Notes under the pieces: model-generated | Database searches by the model: none | Told to the model about the DNA's origin: nothing | The model's input: the letters and a program-made list of their open reading frames with translations, nothing else | In this document: one piece after another, positions 2,980 through 26,379 of the stretch | Position numbering within the stretch: position 1 is the first letter of the stretch | Layout: every line of letters begins with the position of its first letter | IMG/VR virus record: IMGVR_UViG_3300042731_003199 | Coordinates: 1 to 31,663 of that record | DNA from: a virus | Length of the DNA stretch: 31,663 nt | Direction: 5' to 3' (one strand) | Made by a program: the position numbers and the translations under genes

Positions 2980-4548
2980 ATGGTGTCTCTGAGCGCACCT
3001 GAGCCGCTAACTCCGCTATGGTGGGTTCAGAGGCTTTTCCGACGGATGATTGCCAAGAGAGCGGAAATCGACTTCTATAGCAACTATTACATCGGTGAGT
3101 TCCCGCTCCCGTGGATCCACCCGGATGCGCAGGAGGAGTTCGCTCGCCTGCTTCGGATGTGTCGATCTAACTTCATGGGTCTAGTCATCGACGCTCAGGT
3201 CGAACGGATGAATATCGATGGATTCCGTCTGACGTCGACTACAGATGGTTCTGCCGATGAGGATCTGTGGAAGATCTGGCAATGGAATGATATGGATGCC
3301 GAGTATGACAAGGGTCTACTTGAAGCATCTATTGCCGGGGAAATGTACCTTCTCGTCGCTCCGAACAAGAACGATGAGAAGTTCCCGCTAATCTATGTCG
3401 AACATCCTAGGCAGTGCATTGTCGAGCACGTTCCAGGGACAAATAGGAGGGAGCGCGCGGCCGGATTGAAGGCGTGGGTGGATGATTGGACAGGGGAAGT
3501 CCATGCCACACTTTACCTTCCGAACGGTATCTATAAGTTCAAGACTCCGCCGGTTCAGCGGATCAGTGACGGTTTGACTGTTGTTGATGATTCTCGTGTT
3601 GATCTGGTCGTTCCGGAGTTCTTGATCCGTGAGGTTCGTGGTGAGACGTGGCCTGCGCCGAATCCGACAGGTGTCGTGCCGCTTTTTGAGTCTCCGAACA
3701 ATCCACGGTTGATCCTCGGCGGGCGGAGTGAGCTTGAGGACGTCACGGACGTGCAGGACCGTATTGTGAAGACCATCGCGGATCGTTTGATGACTCAGGA
3801 TTTCGGGGCATTCAGACAGAAGTGGATCACTGGTTGGCCCCAGGAGGACGAGAGCGGTAATCCTACGCCGAATATTGATATCGGCCGGGACCGCGTGATC
3901 ACTACAGATGTGGAGGAAGCTAAGTTCGGTCAATTCGATGCAGACGGAGTGAAAGAACTCCTAGAAGCTGTAATCGAGGATGTAAAGCACATTGCTTCAC
4001 GAACACGTACACCTGCCCAGTATTTGTTGGGTGACATGTCGAATGTCAACGGTGAGACGCTCGCTGCCTCCGAATCCGGCTTGGTGTCGAAGGTTCGTCA
4101 GAGAATGCGTGGGCATTCGAACGCGGTTGAAGGCGCGATGCGTCTGGCTCGTGAAATCGGTGGATACGGAAAACTTGAGCCGGGTGTCATTATGGAGACG
4201 GTATGGCACGACCCTGAGCACCGGACGAAGGGTGAGCTTACGGACGCCGCCGTGAAGGCCCGTCAGGGTCTAGATATGCCGATCCCGGCTACATGGGAGA
4301 TGATCGGTCTATCGCAGGCTGAGATCATGCGTCTACTCGAAATGCGGCAGAAGGAAAGGGACGAAGCCATGGCGCAGCAGAACGCGCTTATGGAGCTTAC
4401 GGACCGGTTCCGCAATGCGGGAGCTACAGGGAACGACGGTGATCCGAACGAGGACCCGAACGATAACCAAAACGAGGATCCGAACGACGGAAACGACGGG
4501 AAACAGAACAATCAGGACATCAACAAGCCTAACGGGGTGACGAAGTGA
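2980..4548 (+). CDS. Portal protein (SPP1 gp6-like)
   Basis: This 522-residue protein forms the ring at the capsid vertex through which DNA enters and to which the tail joins. The N-terminal pattern (paired W residues near 15, YYIGEFPLPW near 35-45, then a conserved NFMGLVIDAQVERM stretch) matches the SPP1 gp6-like portal family, and the length is typical. The C-terminus is very acidic, with N/D/P/E-rich repeats (from about residue 480). The start ATG 2980 follows AAAGGAA at 2966-2972. It is followed after 7 bases by the MuF-like gene, the usual partner of this portal class. Confidence 0.93.
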   Translation: MVSLSAPEPLTPLWWVQRLFRRMIAKRAEIDFYSNYYIGEFPLPWIHPDAQEEFARLLRMCRSNFMGLVIDAQVERMNIDGFRLTSTTDGSADEDLWKIWQWNDMDAEYDKGLLEASIAGEMYLLVAPNKNDEKFPLIYVEHPRQCIVEHVPGTNRRERAAGLKAWVDDWTGEVHATLYLPNGIYKFKTPPVQRISDGLTVVDDSRVDLVVPEFLIREVRGETWPAPNPTGVVPLFESPNNPRLILGGRSELEDVTDVQDRIVKTIADRLMTQDFGAFRQKWITGWPQEDESGNPTPNIDIGRDRVITTDVEEAKFGQFDADGVKELLEAVIEDVKHIASRTRTPAQYLLGDMSNVNGETLAASESGLVSKVRQRMRGHSNAVEGAMRLAREIGGYGKLEPGVIMETVWHDPEHRTKGELTDAAVKARQGLDMPIPATWEMIGLSQAEIMRLLEMRQKERDEAMAQQNALMELTDRFRNAGATGNDGDPNEDPNDNQNEDPNDGNDGKQNNQDINKPNGVTK

Positions 4549-4555
4549 GCATCGG

Positions 4556-5605
4556 ATGACCGTAACGACGCTTGATAGTAATGTCGATCCCCGCGCACGT
4601 GCGGCGTACGCGCTGTCGAGACAGCACCAGTTGACCCAAGCTCAGGTTCGGGCGCAGATCGTTGCCGGAGTTCTCGGCATATGGGCTACGGTAAATTCCG
4701 AACAACTGCTCGCATCGTGGACCAGCGGAGTTTTGGAGAGAATCTTCTCCCTGGTATCGCTCGGCCAGTATACCGTCGCGAGTCAGGCCAGATCCTTCGT
4801 CAAGGAGACGCTTTCCGTCCAAGGGGCAGAAGTCGACATTCCGGAGATCGATCCGTTTCGTTTTGCCGGTATTTCGTCCGATGGGCAGAGTCTTGACTCA
4901 CTTTTGACCGGGGCTGTCGCTCACACCTTCGAAAGGTTGGGTCGCGGTGATTCGTCGGCCGCCGCTCTTAAGGCGGGTGCAGATTTCCTCACCTTGGCTA
5001 CGTCAACGCAAATTAGTGACGCAGGTAGAGCGGCGGACCAAGTCGCAATCACTGCGGCTGAACCGACGTCACCTGATTTCGAAGCGGCAGGACCAGCCCC
5101 GACCGAACCGAAAAAGCTCAGGTATGGATGGGTGAGGATGCTTACTCCCCCGTCGTGTTCGCGGTGTGCGATTCTCGCCGGACAGTTCTATAAATGGAAC
5201 GACGGCTTCCTGCGTCACCCGATGTGCGACTGTCGACACATTCCGGCCATTGAGGCGGTCGCGTTGGACGTAGAAACCGATGCGGACGAATACTTCAACT
5301 CATTGACAAGAGAAGAGCAGAACAAGTATTTCGGAGTAGCGAATTCACGTGCGATCCGTGACGGCGCCGACATCTACCAGGTGGTGAACGCGACGACCCG
5401 TAAGGGTGCGATGTTCACCGCAGACCGTGGGCGTCGGTACACCACCGAAGGAACGACCCGTAGGGGGTTCGCGTACGTCCGGATGAGGGAGGCGAAGCGG
5501 AAGGGTAAGGTCTTGCGCCCCACGCCGTGGCAGCTTTACAAGGACGCCAAGGGTAATCGTGAAGACGCTATCGAGTTCCTCCGGAGGTTCGGTTACATCC
5601 TCTAA
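4556..5605 (+). CDS. MuF-like minor capsid protein
   Basis: This 349-residue protein is a head-morphogenesis protein of the kind encoded next to SPP1-type portals; relatives enter the head in a few copies and may carry a C-terminal cargo domain. The diagnostic feature is a possible metal-binding cluster, C201-x2-C204 followed by H221-P-x-C224-x-C226, in the context GWVRMLTPPSCSRC. The N-terminal 170 residues are mainly helical and alanine-rich. The C-terminal 80 residues are basic and rich in R, K and Y. No protease motif is visible, so I do not call it a capsid maturation protease. The ribosome site for ATG 4556 is weak, so translation is probably coupled to the portal stop at 4548. Confidence 0.85.
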   Translation: MTVTTLDSNVDPRARAAYALSRQHQLTQAQVRAQIVAGVLGIWATVNSEQLLASWTSGVLERIFSLVSLGQYTVASQARSFVKETLSVQGAEVDIPEIDPFRFAGISSDGQSLDSLLTGAVAHTFERLGRGDSSAAALKAGADFLTLATSTQISDAGRAADQVAITAAEPTSPDFEAAGPAPTEPKKLRYGWVRMLTPPSCSRCAILAGQFYKWNDGFLRHPMCDCRHIPAIEAVALDVETDADEYFNSLTREEQNKYFGVANSRAIRDGADIYQVVNATTRKGAMFTADRGRRYTTEGTTRRGFAYVRMREAKRKGKVLRPTPWQLYKDAKGNREDAIEFLRRFGYIL

Positions 5606-5727: not shown

Positions 5728-6312
5728 ATGTCAGAGGTAACGCCTGAGCCCGGCACGCAAGACCCGCAGGGACAGCAGGGCCAACAGGGCCAGCAGGGTC
5801 AACAGGCGCCCGCCGGGACACCACCTAGCCAAGGAACGCAGCAGCAGCCATCATCGGCCCAAGGACCTGACTATAAGGCCGAAGCCGAACGTCTACGCGA
5901 AGAGCTGAAAAAGCTCCGCCGCGTAGAAGAACAAGTGAAAGCGTTGCGTCCCAAGGCAGCGAAGTTCGATGAACTACAGCAAGCGGCGCTATCTGCCGAA
6001 GAGCGTTCTCAACTAGCGGTCGAAACTGCTACGAGGGAACGTGAGGCGGAAGCTAAGCGTGCTGCGGAAGCGGAACGTGAGCTAGCGAAGTATCGCGCGG
6101 CAACAAAACACAACATTTCAGGTGAGGATATTTCCTTCCTTGATGGTGTTTCGGTCGAAAACCTCGACCAGGCCGCCGAACGTCTAGCAAAGCGACTGAA
6201 AGCCGCTGACATCCCGAACTTCGATGGTGGGGGAAGAGTCGATCCTCCGGCTACCGACAATATGGGCGATTTCCTTCGCCAACAGCTTGACCGTGCTCGC
6301 GGTCGGCGGTAG
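5728..6312 (+). CDS. Scaffolding protein
   Basis: This 194-residue protein should guide capsid assembly and then leave the head. It has an N-terminal low-complexity region with QGQ/QQG repeats (about 10-45), then a long charged coiled coil (about 50-140, rich in E, K, R and A), then a D/G/P-containing tail ending in basic residues. This composition and the place immediately before the major capsid gene are typical of phage scaffolds. I chose ATG 5728 because GGAGGT (5716-5721) lies six bases before it; an in-frame ATG at 5713 would place the ribosome site inside the gene. Confidence 0.85.
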   Translation: MSEVTPEPGTQDPQGQQGQQGQQGQQAPAGTPPSQGTQQQPSSAQGPDYKAEAERLREELKKLRRVEEQVKALRPKAAKFDELQQAALSAEERSQLAVETATREREAEAKRAAEAERELAKYRAATKHNISGEDISFLDGVSVENLDQAAERLAKRLKAADIPNFDGGGRVDPPATDNMGDFLRQQLDRARGRR

Positions 6313-6323
6313 TCGGTAGTTCT

Positions 6324-6369
6324 AAGCCTTCTCAGGCCGGACTACCAAGTCTAGAGCCTGAGGAGGCTT
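6324..6369 (+). promoter_or_regulatory. Hairpin that buries the major capsid ribosome binding site
   Basis: AAGCCTTCTCAGGC (6324-6337) pairs with GCCTGAGGAGGCTT (6356-6369) with only one non-Watson-Crick pair (T/G). The capsid gene's Shine-Dalgarno, GAGGAGG (6360-6366), lies inside the right arm. A competing stem, GGTAGT (6315-6320) with ACTACC (6341-6346), spans the left arm. The element could act as a terminator, an mRNA processing or stability signal, or a translational switch. Confidence 0.7.
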
Positions 6370-6373
6370 TCTC

Positions 6374-7324
6374 GTGGTTTACAACAGTCTTACGTCGCGT
6401 TCCGACGTTGCCGCGCTCATTCCGGAAACGGTGTCGAACGCGATGCTCGGGAAGGCTGTCGAGTCATCAGCCGTCCTGCGGTACTTCGGTCGCATCCCTG
6501 TGCCGGGCGGGACACTTCGTTTCCCCGTTCTAAGCGCTCTGCCTATCGCTTACTGGGTCGACGGGGACACGGGTCTAAAGCAGACCACAGAAGTCGGATG
6601 GGGCAACAAGTACATGACCGTTGAGGAAATCGCGGTCATCCTCCCTATCCCTGACAACGTAGTCGCCGATGTTCAGGAACGTTCGCTTTGGGATGAGGCT
6701 ATGCCTCTGATGATCGAAGCGTTCGGGCGCGTGCTCGACTCCGCCGTTTTCTTCGGCACAAACGCTCCGTCGTCATTCCCTACGAACGTCGTTGCGGCTT
6801 CTACATCAGCCGGAAACACGGCAACTATCGGCACGAATGCCGCTGCTGCCGGAGGATTCCTCGGCGACATCGACGACATGTACGGGAAGGTTGAAGCCGA
6901 CGGTTTCGACGTTACCGGGTTCATTTCATCTATCGCGATGAAGCCGAACCTTCGGAAGGCTCGGGACACCACTGGTCAGAAGCTTGACGCCGGTCGGGTG
7001 TCCGGGGATCTCATGACTATCGACGGATACCCGATCGGGTACCCGATGAGGGGTCTGTGGCCTTCCGGGTCCGGTACTGCTCAGATGATCGGCGGAGCCT
7101 GGGATAACTTCCTGGTGGGTGTCCGGCAGGACATTTCCATGAAGGTTCTTACTGAGGCCGTGATTCAGGACAACACGGGCCAGATTATCTACAACCTGGC
7201 GCAACAGGACATGACCGCCGTCCGTCTGACTTTCCGGGTCGGTTGGGTCGTAAAGAACATCATCAACAACGATCAACCGGTGGAAGCCAACCGTTACCCT
7301 GCGGTAACGCTTCTCGCGGCCTGA
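6374..7324 (+). CDS. Major capsid protein (HK97-fold)
   Basis: This 316-residue protein should form the capsid shell. The N-terminal half has the pattern of HK97-type capsid proteins of this size class: SAVLRYFGRIPVPGGTLRFP, then AYWVDGDTGLKQTTEV and IPDNVVADV. The C-terminal half contains the loop-and-strand pattern around TIDGYPIGYPM, and ends in RLTFRVGWVVKN. It follows the scaffold gene directly. The GTG start at 6374 lies 7 bases after GAGGAGG. There is no long N-terminal delta region, so the separate scaffold presumably fills that role. The gene is bracketed by strong hairpins on both sides, fitting tight control of the most abundant virion protein. Confidence 0.93.
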   Translation: MVYNSLTSRSDVAALIPETVSNAMLGKAVESSAVLRYFGRIPVPGGTLRFPVLSALPIAYWVDGDTGLKQTTEVGWGNKYMTVEEIAVILPIPDNVVADVQERSLWDEAMPLMIEAFGRVLDSAVFFGTNAPSSFPTNVVAASTSAGNTATIGTNAAAAGGFLGDIDDMYGKVEADGFDVTGFISSIAMKPNLRKARDTTGQKLDAGRVSGDLMTIDGYPIGYPMRGLWPSGSGTAQMIGGAWDNFLVGVRQDISMKVLTEAVIQDNTGQIIYNLAQQDMTAVRLTFRVGWVVKNIINNDQPVEANRYPAVTLLAA

Positions 7325-9236: not shown

Positions 9237-10283
9237 ATGACCACCTACTTTACTGATTCGTTTACCGGATCGAACGGTTCACCGTGGAACGCGAGCAATT
9301 GGACCACATCCGGTGTTTCTGCGCTGAATACGGCCGGTTCTGCGGTGGAGATTCAGTCTAACCGTGGGCGTCTGAATTCCGGGTCGGTCGGATCGTTCGG
9401 TGGTCATGCTGCTTCTCGTTACTCCGGGTCTAACCTTACCGATGCGGAAATGTCGGGAACGGTTATTTTCAACGATACCATTAACGGTTCGTTCGAATGT
9501 TGGATCCGCGCTAGCACATCACAGATCGACGGAACCGGATACGCCTTCGCGTGCTCCGTAGGAACGACCGACAACGTCGTTCTTGTCCTTGCCGACAACT
9601 ATGATTACACACCTCTCGCTTTCGTGAGCGTAACTATTACGCAAGGCGTCGAATACGGGTGGAAACACTACTGCGTAGGAAATACGCACAAGTGCAAGGT
9701 GTGGGCAACTAGCGGGTCGGAACCTGCTTACCAGATTGACGAGACAGATTCTACCGTCACGGGATCCGGATACATCTACGTTCACGCCAAGGGTGGAAGC
9801 ACTTCAGGTTTCGATGTAGATATCGATGATGTCACTCTCACGGACGGATCCGGAGGTACATCCGCGACGTACACCGGATCCGTCACCGGAACAGGTGCGT
9901 TTTCCCGCACGACTGTTACGAAGAATCCATTTACCGGATCCGTCACCCCGGTCGGGGCATGGTCGTACATCAAGGTAGTTCCGAGAGTTTTCACTTCATC
10001 GGTGACCACTATCGGAACATTTGCAAAGAATGTGACGAAGTCTTTCTCCGGATCCTCCACGGCGGTCGGAGTATCGCTGAGGGTTCCGGAGAAGTCGTTC
10101 GCCGGGACGGTAACGATTTCCGGAGCTTTCGAGAAAGTCCCGATTCGCGTCTTCACTGGTACAATCACCGCAGTCGGTGTATCGGTCATTACGTTTATCG
10201 GTAGGGTCTTCGGTCGGCCCGGTCGTGTAAAGACGGTCGTGTCCAAAGCCGGTGAGATTCGAATGAGGATCCGGAGGGGCTGA
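9237..10283 (+). CDS. Lectin-like (LamG/ConA-type) protein with six C-terminal repeats
   Basis: This 348-residue protein has an N-terminal domain (about 1-200) that looks like a concanavalin A/LamG-type beta sandwich: it opens with YFTDSFTGSNGSPWNASNW and closes with SGFDVDIDDVTLTD. From residue 212 to about 318 come six degenerate repeats of roughly 18-20 residues with core F-x-G-[ST]-[VI]-T-x-x-G-x-[FW]. The C-terminus is basic. Such repeats are seen in phage and host surface proteins. There is no signal peptide, so it is probably part of the virion. The gene lies among head-tail connector genes and overlaps the next start by one base (TGATG), suggesting a glycan-binding head or neck appendage. 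Confidence 0.7.
   Translation: MTTYFTDSFTGSNGSPWNASNWTTSGVSALNTAGSAVEIQSNRGRLNSGSVGSFGGHAASRYSGSNLTDAEMSGTVIFNDTINGSFECWIRASTSQIDGTGYAFACSVGTTDNVVLVLADNYDYTPLAFVSVTITQGVEYGWKHYCVGNTHKCKVWATSGSEPAYQIDETDSTVTGSGYIYVHAKGGSTSGFDVDIDDVTLTDGSGGTSATYTGSVTGTGAFSRTTVTKNPFTGSVTPVGAWSYIKVVPRVFTSSVTTIGTFAKNVTKSFSGSSTAVGVSLRVPEKSFAGTVTISGAFEKVPIRVFTGTITAVGVSVITFIGRVFGRPGRVKTVVSKAGEIRMRIRRG
9870..10190 (+). repeat. Degenerate tandem repeats encoding F-x-G-S-V-T units
   Basis: Six copies of a unit of about 54-60 bp, each beginning near ACCGGATCCGTCACC or a variant, encode the repeat region of the 9237 gene. The first two copies are closest in DNA sequence; later copies have diverged. Seven GGATCC sites lie in this gene, several at the repeat heads. 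Confidence 0.6.
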
Positions 10284-11089: not shown

Positions 11090-11443
11090 ATGCCGGTAAA
11101 GATTGTATTTTCTAATCTTCCGGCGATCGCGCGGGCCATCCCGGAAAAAGAAGAAGAAGCCGTAGACAATTTCTCCGAAGAATTGATGACAGCTATCCGG
11201 ACCAGGATCTGGCGTCGATACGGATACACTTCCGCTTCAGTCAAGGACCACAGTCTTGATCCGCTGTCGGCCGACATCCATATCGGCGAAAGAGGAGCCC
11301 TCGGGTTCTACTCCAGATTCCAGGAGGAAGGCACGGTAAATCAACCTCCACGTCCTGTCGTCCGGCCGGTCGCGCACCTATTCGAACCGCGTTTCGCAGT
11401 TATCGTCGCAGCTAAACTAAAAGAGGCGGTAAGGGCAAAATGA
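11090..11443 (+). CDS. HK97 gp10-like neck / tail-joining protein
   Basis: This 117-residue protein has an N-terminal helix (AIPEKEEEAVDNFSEELMTAIRTR) followed by Y/G-rich loops, an FYSRFQEEGT motif and PRPVVRPVAHLFEPRF. The F/Y-x-E-x-G-T...P-x-P-x-x-x-P pattern is a good match to the HK97 gp10 family of small tail-completion proteins. It starts four bases after the stopper and overlaps the next gene by four bases (ATGA at 11440). Confidence 0.8.
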   Translation: MPVKIVFSNLPAIARAIPEKEEEAVDNFSEELMTAIRTRIWRRYGYTSASVKDHSLDPLSADIHIGERGALGFYSRFQEEGTVNQPPRPVVRPVAHLFEPRFAVIVAAKLKEAVRAK

Positions 11444-11871
11444 GTGACGGATATGAGACTCTGGACGTTCTTGAGCCGTGGCTCGTTGCGTTGCTCACAG
11501 ATGTCACGATCGATTCGGCCGACCCGAACCTCGTTGATCATGTCGTAAATGCGCAGACGACCGAGTCAATTTCCCCTCCGTACCTTCTGTTGTGGCATAT
11601 CTCGTCGAGAGACATTCTTGGCGTGGGCGGTACCAGAGTCGATACGGATAACATTTACGGGGTCAAGGCGGTGCATCAGATTAACTCGTTCGTTCCGGGG
11701 CGAGCGGTCATGCGAGCCGTCGATGCGGCTCTACATAACATGAACGTTACGACATTGAACGGAAGTTTGACCTGCGTTCGCGAATCGACGTTCCATTATC
11801 CGGAAACTATTGACGGAGTGCAGTTCATGCACGTAGGTGCTCAATACCGGCTCCGGGCGACATCGGACTAG
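11440..11871 (+). CDS. Tail terminator protein
   Basis: This 143-residue protein probably caps the tail tube at its head-proximal end. It is an alpha/beta protein starting LDVLEPWLVALLTDVTI, with a central WHISSRDILGVGG region and a final beta strand FMHVGAQYRLRAT. Size, fold pattern and position (after the gp10-like gene, before tail tube genes) match tail terminators. It ends nine bases before the secreted glycosidase gene, an unusual neighbour for this slot. Confidence 0.75.
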   Translation: MSDGYETLDVLEPWLVALLTDVTIDSADPNLVDHVVNAQTTESISPPYLLLWHISSRDILGVGGTRVDTDNIYGVKAVHQINSFVPGRAVMRAVDAALHNMNVTTLNGSLTCVRESTFHYPETIDGVQFMHVGAQYRLRATSD

Positions 11872-11879
11872 GAGATAAT

Positions 11880-13592
11880 ATGCGTATCAGCAAGCTTGCT
11901 ATTTCAACGGTGATCGCGGCAGCAATCACCGTTGGTGGAGTTACGGTAGCTGCTGCCTCCGATCCTGTGTTTACCAGGGGTTCGTATGCACCGTCGAAGA
12001 CATGGTCGTGGGTCGACGACGAAAGTCTCGGGGACACGTCAACCGCCGCTCAATATGCACAAGCCGACGTTACCGGGCTGACGGATGCGGATCACAACGC
12101 CGGTTTCCGCCTGCGGTACGGAACCGGCAATATCCTGGTCGCAGTTTCCGGAACGGCATGGAAAATCGAACCGAGTCAAGGAGGAATCGTCGGCGGTCCG
12201 TTCACACACCCCGCGAACGGAACCGTGAAAGTAACCATCGACAGTTCCGGCGAAGTCAACGTGCTATGGAACGGAGCGACGGTAGCAACGAGAACCGTTC
12301 AAGGTTCGTATCCCGGCCGTGGAGTCGTTCCGTCGGTATGGCAGTCATCCAGCGGCGTCGTGATGACAAATATCGAAGCCGGAACGTTCGGAGTGACCGC
12401 AACTCCTACGCCGACTTCTACGTCGGCTTCACCGTCCGTGACTTCTACGCCGACTCCGACCGATTCCGTTACTTCTACGCCGACTCCGACGGTTACCGCC
12501 CCGACCGTCACCATCACTCCGACCGTCACCGCTCCGGCGGTCACCGTCACGCCCACGGTCACTGCTCCGGCGGTCACGGTGACTCCCACGGTCACCGTGA
12601 CGGGCTCCCCTTCTCCTAGTACCACCCCGACCGCGACGGAGCCCCCAGGCGGCGCACGATGGCTCTCCGGTGCGTCTTCGAAGTACGCGGTGAACGGGGA
12701 GTACGGGGACTGGCGGGGTGAACCCGTGAAGATCGTCGGGACGTGGAGCGACGGGGACGCTTCCGGTTCCGAAGCTTTGGTGTCCATGGGTCCCGGAACC
12801 GACATGGCCGGATTGAATTCGTCGTTCGCGTTGGACATCGCTATCGGAGCGATTTTCGATGGACAGTCGTGGTCGCAGGCCGCCGCCGGGGCGTACAACG
12901 ACAGGTGGGAGAGGACGCTACAAAACCTGAAGACCAAGACGGAAGCAGTTGGTGTTCTCCCGCAGAACGTGTACATCAGGTTCGCCCACGAGTACAACGG
13001 CAACTGGGTGGATTGGCGGGTCGCCAAGGGGCAGGAAGCCGACTTCCGTACCGCGATTTCTAGGTTTTCGGCTCTCCGCTACGAAGTGTTCGGTGAAAGC
13101 GACGCTCCCAAGGTTGTTCTCTGCGCTAATGAAGGAACGTCCGGCGGTATGGCAGATCCTCGCGACGAGTTCGTGAAGGTCGACGGTTCGGGTCGCAAGG
13201 TCGTGGATGTGTATTGCGTTGATAGTTACAACGCTTGGCCCCCACGGTCGGACGCGACGGATATTCGGAACTGGCTGAACAGAGTTAACGGCGGTCTTCC
13301 GGACAGCCCGGAAGAGCACCGTCTTTTCGCTGAATCGGTCGGGGTTCCGTTCTCCGTCGGTGAGTGGAGCAACTGTGGACCGGCATGCGACGGCGGTGGC
13401 GAATCGCCGAACTACATGATCGAGATCAACAATTGGTTCCGGCAGCATGCAGGGGATCTCGATGATCCGCAACCCGGGCAACTGATCTATGATGTTCAGT
13501 TCAATTTGTGGGATCAGTACGCAATCTACGGATCTCAAGCACATCAGCCGGTAACCGCATCTAAGTATGCGGAATTGGTGTGGGGCGAGTAA
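11880..13592 (+). CDS. Secreted multidomain glycoside hydrolase, GH26-like
   Basis: This 570-residue protein should be exported and cut a surface polysaccharide. Order: a Sec signal peptide (basic MRISK, hydrophobic 6-24, likely cleavage near AAAS/DP about 27); a ConA/LamG-like beta domain (about 30-168); a P/T-rich linker (about 171-257); and a catalytic (beta/alpha)8-type domain (about 258-570). The last has IRFAHEYNGNW (E371, candidate acid/base) and FSVGEWSN (E495, candidate nucleophile), the paired glutamates expected of beta-mannanase-type GH26 enzymes. Cysteines C445, C498 and C502 suit an exported protein. GGAGAT precedes ATG 11880 eight bases after the previous gene, so it is part of the late operon. 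A true substrate cannot be read from the sequence. Real enzyme: fairly sure; GH26 rather than a related clan A family: moderately sure. Confidence 0.8.
   Translation: MRISKLAISTVIAAAITVGGVTVAAASDPVFTRGSYAPSKTWSWVDDESLGDTSTAAQYAQADVTGLTDADHNAGFRLRYGTGNILVAVSGTAWKIEPSQGGIVGGPFTHPANGTVKVTIDSSGEVNVLWNGATVATRTVQGSYPGRGVVPSVWQSSSGVVMTNIEAGTFGVTATPTPTSTSASPSVTSTPTPTDSVTSTPTPTVTAPTVTITPTVTAPAVTVTPTVTAPAVTVTPTVTVTGSPSPSTTPTATEPPGGARWLSGASSKYAVNGEYGDWRGEPVKIVGTWSDGDASGSEALVSMGPGTDMAGLNSSFALDIAIGAIFDGQSWSQAAAGAYNDRWERTLQNLKTKTEAVGVLPQNVYIRFAHEYNGNWVDWRVAKGQEADFRTAISRFSALRYEVFGESDAPKVVLCANEGTSGGMADPRDEFVKVDGSGRKVVDVYCVDSYNAWPPRSDATDIRNWLNRVNGGLPDSPEEHRLFAESVGVPFSVGEWSNCGPACDGGGESPNYMIEINNWFRQHAGDLDDPQPGQLIYDVQFNLWDQYAIYGSQAHQPVTASKYAELVWGE
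12394..12650 (+). repeat. P/T-rich linker with short DNA repeats
   Basis: This stretch encodes TPT, SPS and TVTAPAVT units. Two DNA repeat families are visible: copies of CTTCTACGCCGACT and copies of GTCACCGCTCCGGCGGTCACC. It links the lectin-like and catalytic domains of the exported glycosidase. Such repeats can expand or contract by slippage, and the linker is typical of secreted multidomain actinobacterial enzymes. Confidence 0.75.
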
Positions 13593-13604
13593 TTAAGAGG
13601 TGCT

Positions 13605-13632
13605 CCGGGGGGCTGGCAGAATGGTCCCCCGG
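13605..13632 (+). terminator. Hairpin between glycosidase and tail tube genes
   Basis: CCGGGGG (13605-13611) pairs with CCCCCGG (13626-13632) around a 14-base loop in the 69-base gap after the glycosidase. There is no T-run. It may partly end the upstream transcript or protect its 3' end. Confidence 0.5.
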
Positions 13633-13661
13633 GGTCGTTACGACACGAGAGGAACTCCGAC

Positions 13662-14666
13662 ATGGCGGAGCGTAGTACAATCTCGCAGGCGGTTCAGATC
13701 GGAGTCGAATCGACCCCGGGGACAGCCGTTGCGGCAGATATGCGGCTCGGATCTATCGGAATTAACCTCGCGCCTAAGGTCGAGGTTAATTCACAGCGCC
13801 CGACAGGGCAGAAGTATTCCAACCTTGAAGTTCTAGGGAAGGAATGGTCCGAAGCTCAACTAGAAGGCTCTCCGGTGTACACGGAGTTGCCTTACCTGTT
13901 CTCTTCCGTGATGAGTGCAGGGTCGGTCGCCGTAATCATGGACGACGTCACGGACACTACTGGGCGTACATGGACATTCAATTCCAGCGTTTTCGATGCG
14001 GACACTCCGACTACATATACGGTGGAGCAGGGGTCCTCGGTCCGCGCGCATCGCGCAACGAACATCATCGTTTCTGATGCAACGCTGAATTTCTCACGTG
14101 GTGAAGTCACGGTCGAAGGTACAGCCTTGGGAAGGCTGATCGAGGACAACATCACCCTGACCGCTTCTCCGACCACACTTTCCCAGATCCCGGTCCGCCC
14201 GAGTGAAGTCACGTTCTATCTCGACGACACTGCGGCCGGACTGGGCGGAACCAAGCTCACGAGGGCACTGTCCGGATCGTTCGAACTGACCGGAAGATTC
14301 GGTCCTCTATGGATCGTCGATGCGGCAGAGACGTCATTCGCGACGACCGTCGAGACAGAACCTTCCTGCATGTTCAAGATCATGCAGGAAGCCGACGCTC
14401 AGGGCATGGAAAGCCTGACAGCGATGCGGAACGGTGCAACAAAGTTCCTCCGTATCGAAGCGGTCGGCCCGACGATCTATGACGTGAACCCGGTCCTCGT
14501 CCAGCACAGATTGCGTATCGATGTCGCCGGACAGGTCCGTGAAGTCGGTGAATTCTCGGACGAAGACGGAGTCTACGCCATTGAGTGGACATTCGGATCC
14601 GTTGCGGACCCGACGTGGGGGAAGGCGTTCACGGCCGAGGTCGTGACCACTACGACTGCTCTCTGA
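13662..14666 (+). CDS. Major tail (tube) protein
   Basis: This 334-residue protein likely forms the stacked rings of the tail tube. The N-terminus SISQAVQIGVESTPGTAVAAD-type pattern (seen as QAVQIGVESTPGTAVAADMR) is common in phage tail tube proteins. Later features are beta strands with WTFNSSVFDAD, SGSFELTGRFGP and a C-terminal YAIEWTFGSV. GAGAGGAA precedes ATG 13662. It is followed by a strong hairpin, in keeping with high expression. A C-terminal Ig-like extension is possible given the length but is not clear. Confidence 0.85.
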   Translation: MAERSTISQAVQIGVESTPGTAVAADMRLGSIGINLAPKVEVNSQRPTGQKYSNLEVLGKEWSEAQLEGSPVYTELPYLFSSVMSAGSVAVIMDDVTDTTGRTWTFNSSVFDADTPTTYTVEQGSSVRAHRATNIIVSDATLNFSRGEVTVEGTALGRLIEDNITLTASPTTLSQIPVRPSEVTFYLDDTAAGLGGTKLTRALSGSFELTGRFGPLWIVDAAETSFATTVETEPSCMFKIMQEADAQGMESLTAMRNGATKFLRIEAVGPTIYDVNPVLVQHRLRIDVAGQVREVGEFSDEDGVYAIEWTFGSVADPTWGKAFTAEVVTTTTAL

Positions 14667-14746: not shown

Positions 14747-15190
14747 ATGAGAAATGTAGGTTTTACTGGGTCACGGGTTCTCGGGAGGACCAGAGAACCG
14801 ATGGTGGAACATGTCTTGTGCACGATCACCGGGGACATGGTCGTCACCGGTGCATGCGTCGGGGTAGACATGTTCGTGGCGGAATGGTTCGCGGAGAATC
14901 GTCCTGCCGTCGCACAGAAGATCATTGTTCCGAGTGATCGGAGTAGGGTGGATCCTAAGTTCATCAGGGCAATGGGTGACCTGGCGAACGTAGAGATCAT
15001 CCATATGCCGGTAGGATCAACGTATCTCGCCAGGAACATGGAGATCATCAATAACTGTGCGGTACTGGTGGGTTTCCCGATGTACCGTGAGTCCCATGGA
15101 AAGTCCGCTCGTTCGGGGACCTGGCAGACCATCCGGAAGGCAAGAATCGCCGGGAGGAAGGTAGTCGTCCACACCCTTACCAGCGTCTGA
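14747..15190 (+). CDS. SLOG-family nucleotide-binding protein (YspA/DprA-like), accessory gene
   Basis: This 147-residue protein has a Rossmann-like SLOG fold: GFTGSR (5-10) as the first loop, VTGACVGVD (about 34-42) as the second glycine-containing motif, then RNMEIINNCAVLVGFP and SGTWQTIRKARIAGRKV near the C-terminus. This order matches the single-domain YspA/DUF2493 type of SLOG proteins, which bind nucleotides or nucleotide-derived ligands; the biochemical role of most is unknown. It has no Shine-Dalgarno but a -10 five bases before its ATG, and hairpins on both sides (14673-14717 and 15203-15227). It interrupts the tail operon between tail tube and chaperone genes, so it looks like an independently expressed cargo gene. 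A role in nucleotide signalling or counter-defence is only inference. Confidence 0.8.
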   Translation: MRNVGFTGSRVLGRTREPMVEHVLCTITGDMVVTGACVGVDMFVAEWFAENRPAVAQKIIVPSDRSRVDPKFIRAMGDLANVEIIHMPVGSTYLARNMEIINNCAVLVGFPMYRESHGKSARSGTWQTIRKARIAGRKVVVHTLTSV

Positions 15191-24241: not shown

Positions 24242-24678
24242 ATGACACGCATGTGATGATTGCAGCCGGAGTGCTCACGGCCGTGGGCGGTGGGTTGTTG
24301 GCGTCGATCGTCAACGGAATCTTTGCGCGGTCACGTAATGTCGCCGAAGCGGAGTCGACTCGGGCGACCGCAGTTCAGATCGCGACGGATACGACTCTTT
24401 CTGTGATCACTGATCTTCGTGACGAAATCGTTCGGTTGAAGCGGAGACTTGACGTCACCGAAGTGGAAAACGAAGAGGCCAGGCGTAGAGTCGACGATGC
24501 GGAGGCACACGCGGGTAAGGCGGAGTACGATTTGAAGGTGCTGCGGTGCGGCGTAACCGCGTACCAACATCGCGTAGAATACCTAACTAGACTGCTCGAA
24601 GAGTCTGGTGTCAATATGACGACATGGGTCCCGCCGGACGATAAGGACGAACATGGTAGGGAAAGTGGAATCGATTGA
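24238..24678 (+). CDS. Membrane protein with coiled coil, lysis cassette
   Basis: The product is 146 residues from ATG 24238. It has a short N-terminus, one hydrophobic segment (about 8-28, MIAAGVLTAVGGGLLASIV), then a long coiled coil (about 55-125; LRDEIVRLKRRLDVTEVENEEARRR) and a polar tail. Similar proteins in actinophage lysis cassettes are annotated only as membrane proteins; it may help the holin or regulate lysis. The 3' end overlaps the following lysin by 26 bases. An upstream extension to 24175 is possible but has no ribosome site and no better start. Confidence 0.7.
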   Translation: MNDTHVMIAAGVLTAVGGGLLASIVNGIFARSRNVAEAESTRATAVQIATDTTLSVITDLRDEIVRLKRRLDVTEVENEEARRRVDDAEAHAGKAEYDLKVLRCGVTAYQHRVEYLTRLLEESGVNMTTWVPPDDKDEHGRESGID

Positions 24679-25408
24679 ACCGGACATCCCCGGTAGGGGT
24701 ATGTGGACGTTGAAAGGCGGACTTCTCCCGGAAAAGTCCGGCGGCAAGGGGCCAGGTGTCTATCGCGTAGCGGTTGACGACGAACAGAAAATCGGGTCCC
24801 ATTATGTTCTAGGTGACGTCTCGGCGACAACTAGGACTGTCAATCTTGCGGTGAAAGCTTTTCAGTCTCTCTGCGGGATGCCGTTCTTCATGAGGGACGG
24901 AATTCTCGGGGCGGAGACCGGGAAAGAGGGTGTCCGCCTTCAGAAGACGCTAGACATCACAAGTGACGGCATCTTCGGACCTGAAACGATGAAGGCCGCA
25001 CTTCGAGGTTTGATCAGGTCGAAGTCGGATATGTACGCGCTCAATCGGCATGTTCTGTTCGGACTGATCGAAAGTGTGTCACGGTTCGATTTGGCGGCGG
25101 TCGGGAAAAGTGGATGGACCTACGGGCTGTGCCAAATCAACATTCACCCTAAGGAAGGAAGCGGGGGGTCCATCGGTATCGAAAGTGCGCTTACTCCTGA
25201 TATCGCGTTGGACTGGACTGCGAGGAATATCGGAAGAGTGTTCGCCCAGACGTACATGTTTACGCGCGGCATCTCTAGAGATGCCGCATTCAACGTAGCG
25301 GTTCTGAATCATCGCAGTCCGAAGGAAGCAACTGCACTTCGGGACACCGGGGACTATCCGAACGAGCAGGCGAAGGCATTCGTCGAGAGTGTGAGGAGTT
25401 TCGAGTGA
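24653..25408 (+). CDS. Endolysin: peptidoglycan-binding and transglycosylase/lysozyme-like domains
   Basis: This 251-residue protein should cut host peptidoglycan glycan strands. The middle region (about 90-118) shows a peptidoglycan-binding-1 motif (VRLQKTLDITSDGIFGPETMKAAL). The C-terminal half has a transglycosylase SLT-like pattern: a candidate catalytic glutamate E140 in GLIESVSRFD and the GLCQIN motif (158-163), followed by HPKEGS and an alpha-helical tail. There is no signal peptide, so it depends on a holin. AAGGACGAA precedes ATG 24653 within the upstream gene. It ends in a GTGA overlap with the 49-residue gene. A second lysin of different chemistry follows. Confidence 0.8.
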   Translation: MVGKVESIEPDIPGRGMWTLKGGLLPEKSGGKGPGVYRVAVDDEQKIGSHYVLGDVSATTRTVNLAVKAFQSLCGMPFFMRDGILGAETGKEGVRLQKTLDITSDGIFGPETMKAALRGLIRSKSDMYALNRHVLFGLIESVSRFDLAAVGKSGWTYGLCQINIHPKEGSGGSIGIESALTPDIALDWTARNIGRVFAQTYMFTRGISRDAAFNVAVLNHRSPKEATALRDTGDYPNEQAKAFVESVRSFE

Positions 25409-25554: not shown

Positions 25555-25570
25555 AATGGAGTTCATCTGA
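25502..25570 (+). CDS. Tiny basic peptide, 22 residues, overlapping frame
   Basis: ATG 25502 follows a near-ideal ribosome site, GGAGGT (25491-25496), and the frame ends in TGA 25568-25570, which overlaps ATG 25570 of the next lysin (TGATG). The peptide (MNPTRKRLPKLFKMIGHEME...) is basic and could be amphipathic. It could be a real small peptide in the lysis cassette, or only a device that loads ribosomes for the next gene. Confidence 0.4.
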   Translation: MNPTRKRLPKLFKMIGHEMEFI

Positions 25571-26379
25571 TGGCTACAGCAACCCAACTGCTTAACGTAG
25601 CGAGATCTCAGATCGGGTACCGAGAAGGCCGGGGAAACAACAACAAGTACGGCATCTGGTACACGAAGGCTCTAGCTGACGGTAATAACTGGAACCATCA
25701 GCCGTATTGCGCCATGGGACTAACATGGTGCGCAGCGCAAGTCAACGGTGGGCTTTCAGCTTTCGGCGGTCTGTGGGCGTACTGCCCGTACTGGGCTAAA
25801 TGGTTCCGGGATCGCGGGAGATTCCACCGCAGTTCCCCCCGCCGTGGAGACATTGCGTTTTTCGACTGGACCGGCAGGCGCCGCCTTGGTCATGAGATGC
25901 ATGTCGGGATTGTCGAGAAAGTCAGCAGCAACTACATCACCACAATCGAATTCAACACGACCGGAGGGGGGTCCGGGAATCAATCCGATGGCGGTGGCTG
26001 CTATCGCCGTACACGACACATGTCTCTGGTGGTCGGCTACGGTCGACCGAAGTACGCCAGCGAAACCAACGTTACATCGGTGAACCACGCTTCATCGGAT
26101 TACAAGAACCGAACCGATAAGATCCCGCTCGTTGTCGACGGAATTTGGGGCCCGAACACTTCACGGAGACTTCAGCAGGTTCTCCGTGTGAAAGTTGACG
26201 GCGCCTTCGGTCCTATTTCGTTTAGGGCTCTTTCCGTGTGGCTTGGGCAAGGAATCCACGCCGGGTGGACTATCGGCATGAAAACTGCGCTCCAGCATCG
26301 TGTTGGTGTGCAGGCGGACGGAATTATCGGCCCGATCACGGTTAGGGCTCTGCAACGGTACCTTAACCGGATGAACTAG
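25570..26379 (+). CDS. Endolysin: CHAP/NlpC-like peptidase or amidase with peptidoglycan-binding repeats
   Basis: This 269-residue protein has an N-terminal catalytic domain (1-165) with the cysteine-histidine pattern of CHAP enzymes: QPYCAMGLTWC (C47 as candidate nucleophile, C54 nearby), and GHEMHVGIV (H111 as candidate base) followed by TIEFNTTGGG. Its C-terminus (about 190-269) contains peptidoglycan-binding-1 units with DGIWGPNTSRRLQ, DGAFGPISFRAL and DGIIGPITVRALQ. It would cut peptide or amide bonds, complementing the preceding lysin. No signal peptide is present. The ATG is reached by TGATG coupling; a GGAG also lies eight bases upstream. The holin gene follows after nine bases. Confidence 0.85.
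   Translation: MATATQLLNVARSQIGYREGRGNNNKYGIWYTKALADGNNWNHQPYCAMGLTWCAAQVNGGLSAFGGLWAYCPYWAKWFRDRGRFHRSSPRRGDIAFFDWTGRRRLGHEMHVGIVEKVSSNYITTIEFNTTGGGSGNQSDGGGCYRRTRHMSLVVGYGRPKYASETNVTSVNHASSDYKNRTDKIPLVVDGIWGPNTSRRLQQVLRVKVDGAFGPISFRALSVWLGQGIHAGWTIGMKTALQHRVGVQADGIIGPITVRALQRYLNRMN

Follow-up and report, generated by a model that had tools for sequence, protein, structure and literature searches.

A predicted GH26-type glycosidase with a signal peptide at a swappable site between tail terminator and tail tube genes in a phage clade

The locus and its cargo gene

We analysed a virus record of 31.7 kb (the window, meaning the whole stretch of DNA), in which 30 genes were called and scanned for hydropathy. 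The terminase shares about 50% identity with its counterparts in Arthrobacter, Streptomyces and Gordonia phages, which makes an actinobacterial host likely, and the source is probably an uncultured siphophage infecting actinobacteria. Between the genes for the tail terminator and the tail tube, the window holds an open reading frame of 570 aa on the plus strand, hereafter the cargo gene, which was confirmed to be present and to have its own ribosome-binding site. The order terminator, then tail tube is that of cultured relatives, and matching genes are found in uncultured ones. The features of the locus are:

11440..11871, + strand: tail terminator gene (143 aa open reading frame), the upstream flank, named from its position and size
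11870..11874, + strand: AGGAG ribosome-binding site of the cargo gene, 5 nt 5' of the ATG and overlapping the terminator stop codon
11880..13592, + strand: cargo gene, encoding the predicted GH26-type glycosidase with signal peptide
11880..11957, + strand: predicted Sec signal peptide, aa 1-26 (MRISK, hydrophobic core, AAA↓S), from the hydropathy scan
11970..12404, + strand: N-terminal domain, aa 31-175, with 63% identity to L005 only
12405..12644, + strand: Pro/Thr-rich linker, aa 176-255, read from the sequence
12645..13589, + strand: predicted GH26-type (clan GH-A) catalytic TIM barrel, aa 256-570, from profile, AlphaFold2 and VIA
12990..12992, + strand: E371, predicted acid/base, in R-x2-HE-x2-G-x-W, from alignment
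13362..13364, + strand: E495, predicted nucleophile, in GEW, from alignment
13662..14666, + strand: tail tube gene, the downstream flank, which served to define the phage clade

The cargo gene starts 8 bases past the terminator stop codon, and its product opens with two positive charges followed by a hydrophobic core that ends in AAA↓S. With a Kyte-Doolittle value of 2.17 over 15 aa, its N-terminus is the most hydrophobic among the 30 window genes; a holin-like protein ranks next and contains additional membrane segments, so that the cargo protein alone combines a charged N-terminus, top hydrophobicity and no later membrane segment. Judged by our own hydropathy scan and by reading of the sequence, it shows all the features of Sec export considered (charged n-region, hydrophobic core, AxA site, no further membrane segment), and the other eight signal-peptide cargo proteins described below have a charged start, a hydrophobic core and an AxA-like end as well. 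The cargo protein is thus very probably exported from the infected cell by the Sec system. Both the signal peptide and the place in the late operon between terminator and tube, as proposed by an earlier sequence-only reading of this DNA, are borne out by these data. The label "lectin-like", which the same reading gave to aa 31-175, is not borne out, as this domain has a single close relative and no significant database match: searches of the databases returned no homologue besides L005. Common ancestry of the domain with the protein encoded at 9237-10283 found no support.

The linker accounts for the phrog_15511 match of the cargo protein, which covers a low-complexity stretch, and it is also the part most raised in G+C. 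A foreign base composition of the gene was considered and found unconvincing at a GC of 0.59 versus 0.56 for the window. A search for promoter-like sites of the cargo gene found 0 where 1.7 are expected by chance, and is powerless here. A G+C-rich hairpin (13593..13661, + strand; MFE -29.4 kcal/mol, z -2.0 in the window) lies between the cargo and tail tube genes and could, as a statistically weak feature, separate their translation; L005 has a counterpart at 5183-5252 that is partly conserved in sequence. With three relatives at chance level and this z value, a conserved RNA hairpin 3' of the cargo gene was rejected.

Downstream of the tail tube gene, and before the tail assembly genes, lies a 147-aa gene (14747-15190; MRNVGFTGSR..VTGACVGVDMFVAEW), whose product looks by eye like a SLOG/DprA-type nucleotide-binding protein; it gave a weak match to phrog_289 and none in Pfam. 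Among eight relatives checked, only L124 has a counterpart in the same place (6073-6528). Elsewhere, two lysin-like genes (24653-25408 and 25570-26379) lie 5' of the holin-like gene, one with weak transglycosylase and peptidoglycan-binding matches, the other with a CHAP domain and peptidoglycan-binding repeats.

Family and fold of the catalytic domain

On its own, the window protein found no matches in Pfam, in NCBIfam or by tblastn including phages; a Kineococcus plasmid matched it at 25% identity. Relatives were obtained from a two-row alignment scan and from a search with the adjoining tail tube protein, and their alignment led to 80 cellular loci. Across all 24 aligned catalytic domains H370, E371, N373, W376, E495 and W496 are invariant (domain positions 115, 116, 118, 121, 240 and 241). 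Compared with the PDB, the catalytic-domain profile matched the lichenase CtLic26A with an E-value of 4.8e-14 and GH26 mannanases at 4e-8 and weaker. In this profile alignment E371 and E495 fall on E109 and E222 of CtLic26A, which we take to be its acid/base and nucleophile, respectively, and H370-E371 on H108-E109. Enzymes of clan GH-A share a retaining mechanism with two glutamates, and GH26 members conserve Arg, Gly, Trp, Asp and Tyr around subsites -1/+1 (PMC6556568); judged from the sequence, R367, G374, W376, D448 and Y450 of the cargo protein stand at matching motif spacing. The Pfam GH26 model PF02156 matches 20 of the 24 aligned relatives (best E-value 2.6e-9) and does not match the window sequence alone.

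Structure prediction agrees with the profiles. AlphaFold2 supplied with the 24-sequence alignment returned the catalytic domain with a pLDDT of 92.1 and a pTM of 0.92, compared to a pLDDT of 35 for the single-sequence run. Among the matches listed, CtLic26A is the nearest fold (Foldseek E 8e-13; VIA Z 24.8, rmsd 2.8 over 259 residues), followed in VIA by GH26 xylanases (Z 21) and GH26 mannanases (Z 18-20); the VIA comparison covers the best 1000 Foldseek chains, and families outside that set could still resemble the cargo fold. The C-terminal domain is thereby confidently predicted to form a GH26-type TIM barrel in which E371 and E495 take the catalytic positions. The GH26-like domain and the paired glutamates named from the sequence alone are both upheld, the former by a confident barrel whose best folds are GH26 lichenases, the latter by invariance and alignment.

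Contents of the terminator-tube interval

Phages of the same clade were found by a scan with six tail tube proteins, the tube identity being at least 52%. The whole stretch from terminator to tube is visible in 16 distinct contigs, the window included and L130 and L131 counted as one. In nine of them (the window, L124, L127, L128, L132, L133, L134, L135 and L137) the site is occupied by a protein that combines a signal peptide with a GH-A catalytic domain, and in all nine the signal peptide has an AxA-like end. L139 has a GH18-like gene there instead (3634-4857), whose product matches chitinases in a profile comparison with an E-value of 7e-13 and lacks a signal peptide, so export is no rule of the site; the end of a GH18-like gene is also found at the site in L129 (44-877) and L140 (6-680), two cut contigs outside the 16. 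These GH18-like genes carry SxGG and DGxDxDNE. The remaining six contigs (L125, L126, L130/L131, L136, L138 and L141) have an empty site; L126 and L130, in which the simple ORF finder left the terminator frame uncalled, were scored as empty, since stopper and tube lie too close together to hold another gene. In three cultured relatives the gene for the major tail protein follows the terminator, either directly or after a single 61-aa gene. At more distant tail tube loci the terminator mostly adjoins the tube, L022 and L030 showing another open reading frame near the tube by eye.

The GH-A enzymes at the site are of two types. In the catalytic-domain tree the proteins of the window, L124 and L132 form one clade (type A; 100/100) next to an actinobacterial family (93/89), and those of L127, L128, L133, L134, L135 and L137 form a second (type B; 100/99). 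Both types are homologous by profile comparison (probability 98.3) and keep both glutamates, and type B proteins often have an FnIII-like domain where the window protein has its N-terminal domain. Counting the two clades and the GH18 type, no fewer than two GH-A lineages and one GH18 lineage have come to occupy the site. Mapped onto the tail tube tree, the cargo states require at least five changes, and for the GH-A label three are forced by well-supported branches. The terminator-tube interval is a recurrent site with optional, swappable contents. In L128 (the same contig as L006) a gene for an HNH endonuclease with zinc-finger-like motifs (L006 5265-6023, - strand) lies between cargo and tube; from this one case, a homing-type endonuclease is a possible agent of cargo exchange.

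Related glycosidases also occur away from the tail genes. The gene of L038 (6461-7870; 35% identity to type A) lies directly downstream of a holin-like gene, that of L214 (5422-6915; type B, 65%) downstream of an endolysin-like and two holin-like genes, and both products keep an N-terminal signal or anchor.

Substrate, role and comparison with known systems

The closest cellular proteins are GH26-like proteins of Geodermatophilaceae, Quadrisphaera and Kineococcus (L041-L062), with 31-42% identity to the cargo protein over the whole catalytic domain. Like it, they begin with a signal or membrane anchor and frequently contain a low-complexity linker; unlike it, they are encoded by cellular genes outside phages, many beside exopolysaccharide-assembly genes. 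Of 395 genomes taken from a single class, 38 encode such GH26-like proteins, often in several copies; some genomes, mostly large ones (G041, G059, G075, G280, G288 and others), hold at least six. In L045, L046 and L047 the GH26-like domain is joined to long N-terminal regions resembling cell-wall-binding repeats by appearance, which suggests that these enzymes are surface-attached. The tail tube gene was found in none of 395 genomes scanned from the class to which the genome of L041 belongs, a result that is uninformative for want of a positive control.

Glycosyltransferases, acyltransferases, nucleotidyltransferases and a sugar transferase surround the close cellular relatives (58 neighbours at 15 loci). 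In a control set, the neighbours of far GH26 relatives (57 proteins) also include GT2 and cellulose-synthase genes, so the polysaccharide-assembly neighbourhood is not specific to the subgroup of the cargo protein; it may be a general trait of actinobacterial GH26-like proteins, and the far relatives are no neutral background. In Actinoplanes, an exopolysaccharide cluster of the Wzx/Wzy type is reported to include a GH26 gene, and the authors of that work are aware of no characterised cluster like it (PMC13390465). GH26 mannanases conserve a Phe at subsite -1 (F207 of BoMan26B; PMC6556568); at equal spacing the cargo protein has Val (HEYNGNWV), and CtLic26A and most cellular relatives have Tyr. 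Given a fold nearest to the lichenase and xylanase branches, the missing Phe and the genes next to the cellular relatives, we place exopolysaccharide of the host or its neighbours before mannan, the substrate proposed by the sequence-only reading, and give it about an even chance.

Taken together, we consider it fairly probable that the cargo is an interchangeable accessory enzyme, exported by Sec, which hydrolyses exopolysaccharide of the host or its neighbours and so opens the matrix for progeny. The cargo gene would be read together with the late structural genes, and its product would be exported by the host Sec system, with signal peptidase removing aa 1-26. Once across the membrane, the GH26-type barrel with its Pro/Thr linker would hydrolyse beta-linked exopolysaccharide by a retaining mechanism, with E371 as acid/base and E495 as nucleophile, and the opened matrix would let progeny spread and reach their receptors. 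Release at the end of infection and clearing of debris, as proposed earlier, are possible; a Sec substrate can also leave the cell before lysis.

The position of the gene between two tail genes would also suit an enzyme carried on the tail that works in the manner of a depolymerase while the phage adsorbs, and the GH18-like protein of L139 at the same site, having no signal peptide, could be a virion part. We regard this reading of the cargo protein as decidedly unlikely, since a signal peptide with an AxA-like end is present in all nine GH-A cargo proteins, since six of the 16 contigs and the three cultured relatives have the usual tail genes and no cargo gene, and since the same superfamily follows the lysis genes in L038 and L214. 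It is the location in the tail operon or after the lysis genes, the absence from many relatives and the signal peptide that make a tail part unlikely, and the earlier view that this is not an ordinary tail protein holds on the same grounds. An exported enzyme might instead strip the infected cell or its neighbours of glycans that serve as receptors or belong to the matrix, preventing superinfection and the loss of progeny on debris. This fits the benefit suggested earlier and shares the signal peptide and late gene position with the opening of the matrix, from which sequence data cannot separate it; with no known receptor to act on, we find it quite unlikely.

An auxiliary metabolic role, in which the enzyme would break down polysaccharide of plants or soil (mannan, mixed-linkage glucan) to feed the infected host, has precedents, known GH26 enzymes being mostly mannanases with some lichenases and xylanases. 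A soil-virus GH5 endomannanase was shown to be active (PMC6786970), and two further reports read in this metabolic sense the GH26 "mannanase" of mangrove soil viruses, whose predicted hosts are Actinobacteria (PMC6460857), and the GH26 of tundra soil viruses (PMC10127799). Yet a late structural operon is poorly placed for feeding the host, the Phe typical of mannanases is absent, and exopolysaccharide clusters house the nearest cellular relatives, all of which makes this role unlikely. Our preferred reading thus remains an exported enzyme that opens the matrix. Beyond it there is a real possibility, short of probable, that the terminator-tube junction serves in this clade as a dedicated bay for diffusible glycan hydrolases, most of them Sec-exported, whose lineages (two GH26/GH-A clades, a GH18 type, or no enzyme at all) would be swapped to match the exopolysaccharide of current hosts, adaptation then running through a secreted public good and not through tailspikes only. 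If true, a fixed swappable site in the late operon means that some phages release an enzyme as a shared tool. It would also give a rule for finding enzymes against actinobacterial matrix polysaccharides, namely to inspect the terminator-tube interval and the region downstream of the holin.

Among characterised enzymes, CtLic26A of Clostridium thermocellum (PDB 2bvd, 2vi0, 2cit) shares with the phage protein the TIM barrel, the HE-x2-G-x-W motif and both glutamates, and differs in being bacterial, in its 17% identity and in having neither the N-terminal domain nor the linker. Tailspikes and virion-associated depolymerases likewise degrade polysaccharide of the cell surface or matrix to the benefit of the phage. 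Most descriptions of phage polysaccharide depolymerases treat them as part of the virion, whereas the cargo enzyme has a signal peptide and is optional. Searches of the open-licence literature turned up no description of a glycosidase with a signal peptide between terminator and tube, which is weak evidence of absence. Among virus-encoded polysaccharide hydrolases from soil, the structure of a chitosanase has been solved (PMC9485262), and the GH5 and GH26 enzymes cited above resemble the cargo most, as they include GH26 and actinobacterial hosts. As far as the available parts of those reports go, they mention no export signal, fixed genomic site or swapping, and take environmental carbon as the substrate. 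The "distinctive phage strategy" of the sequence-only reading applies to the cargo site rather than to the enzyme for the most part, since GH26 genes in viruses, including some assigned to actinobacterial hosts, were known before; what is added here is the site, the export signal and the swapping of enzymes.
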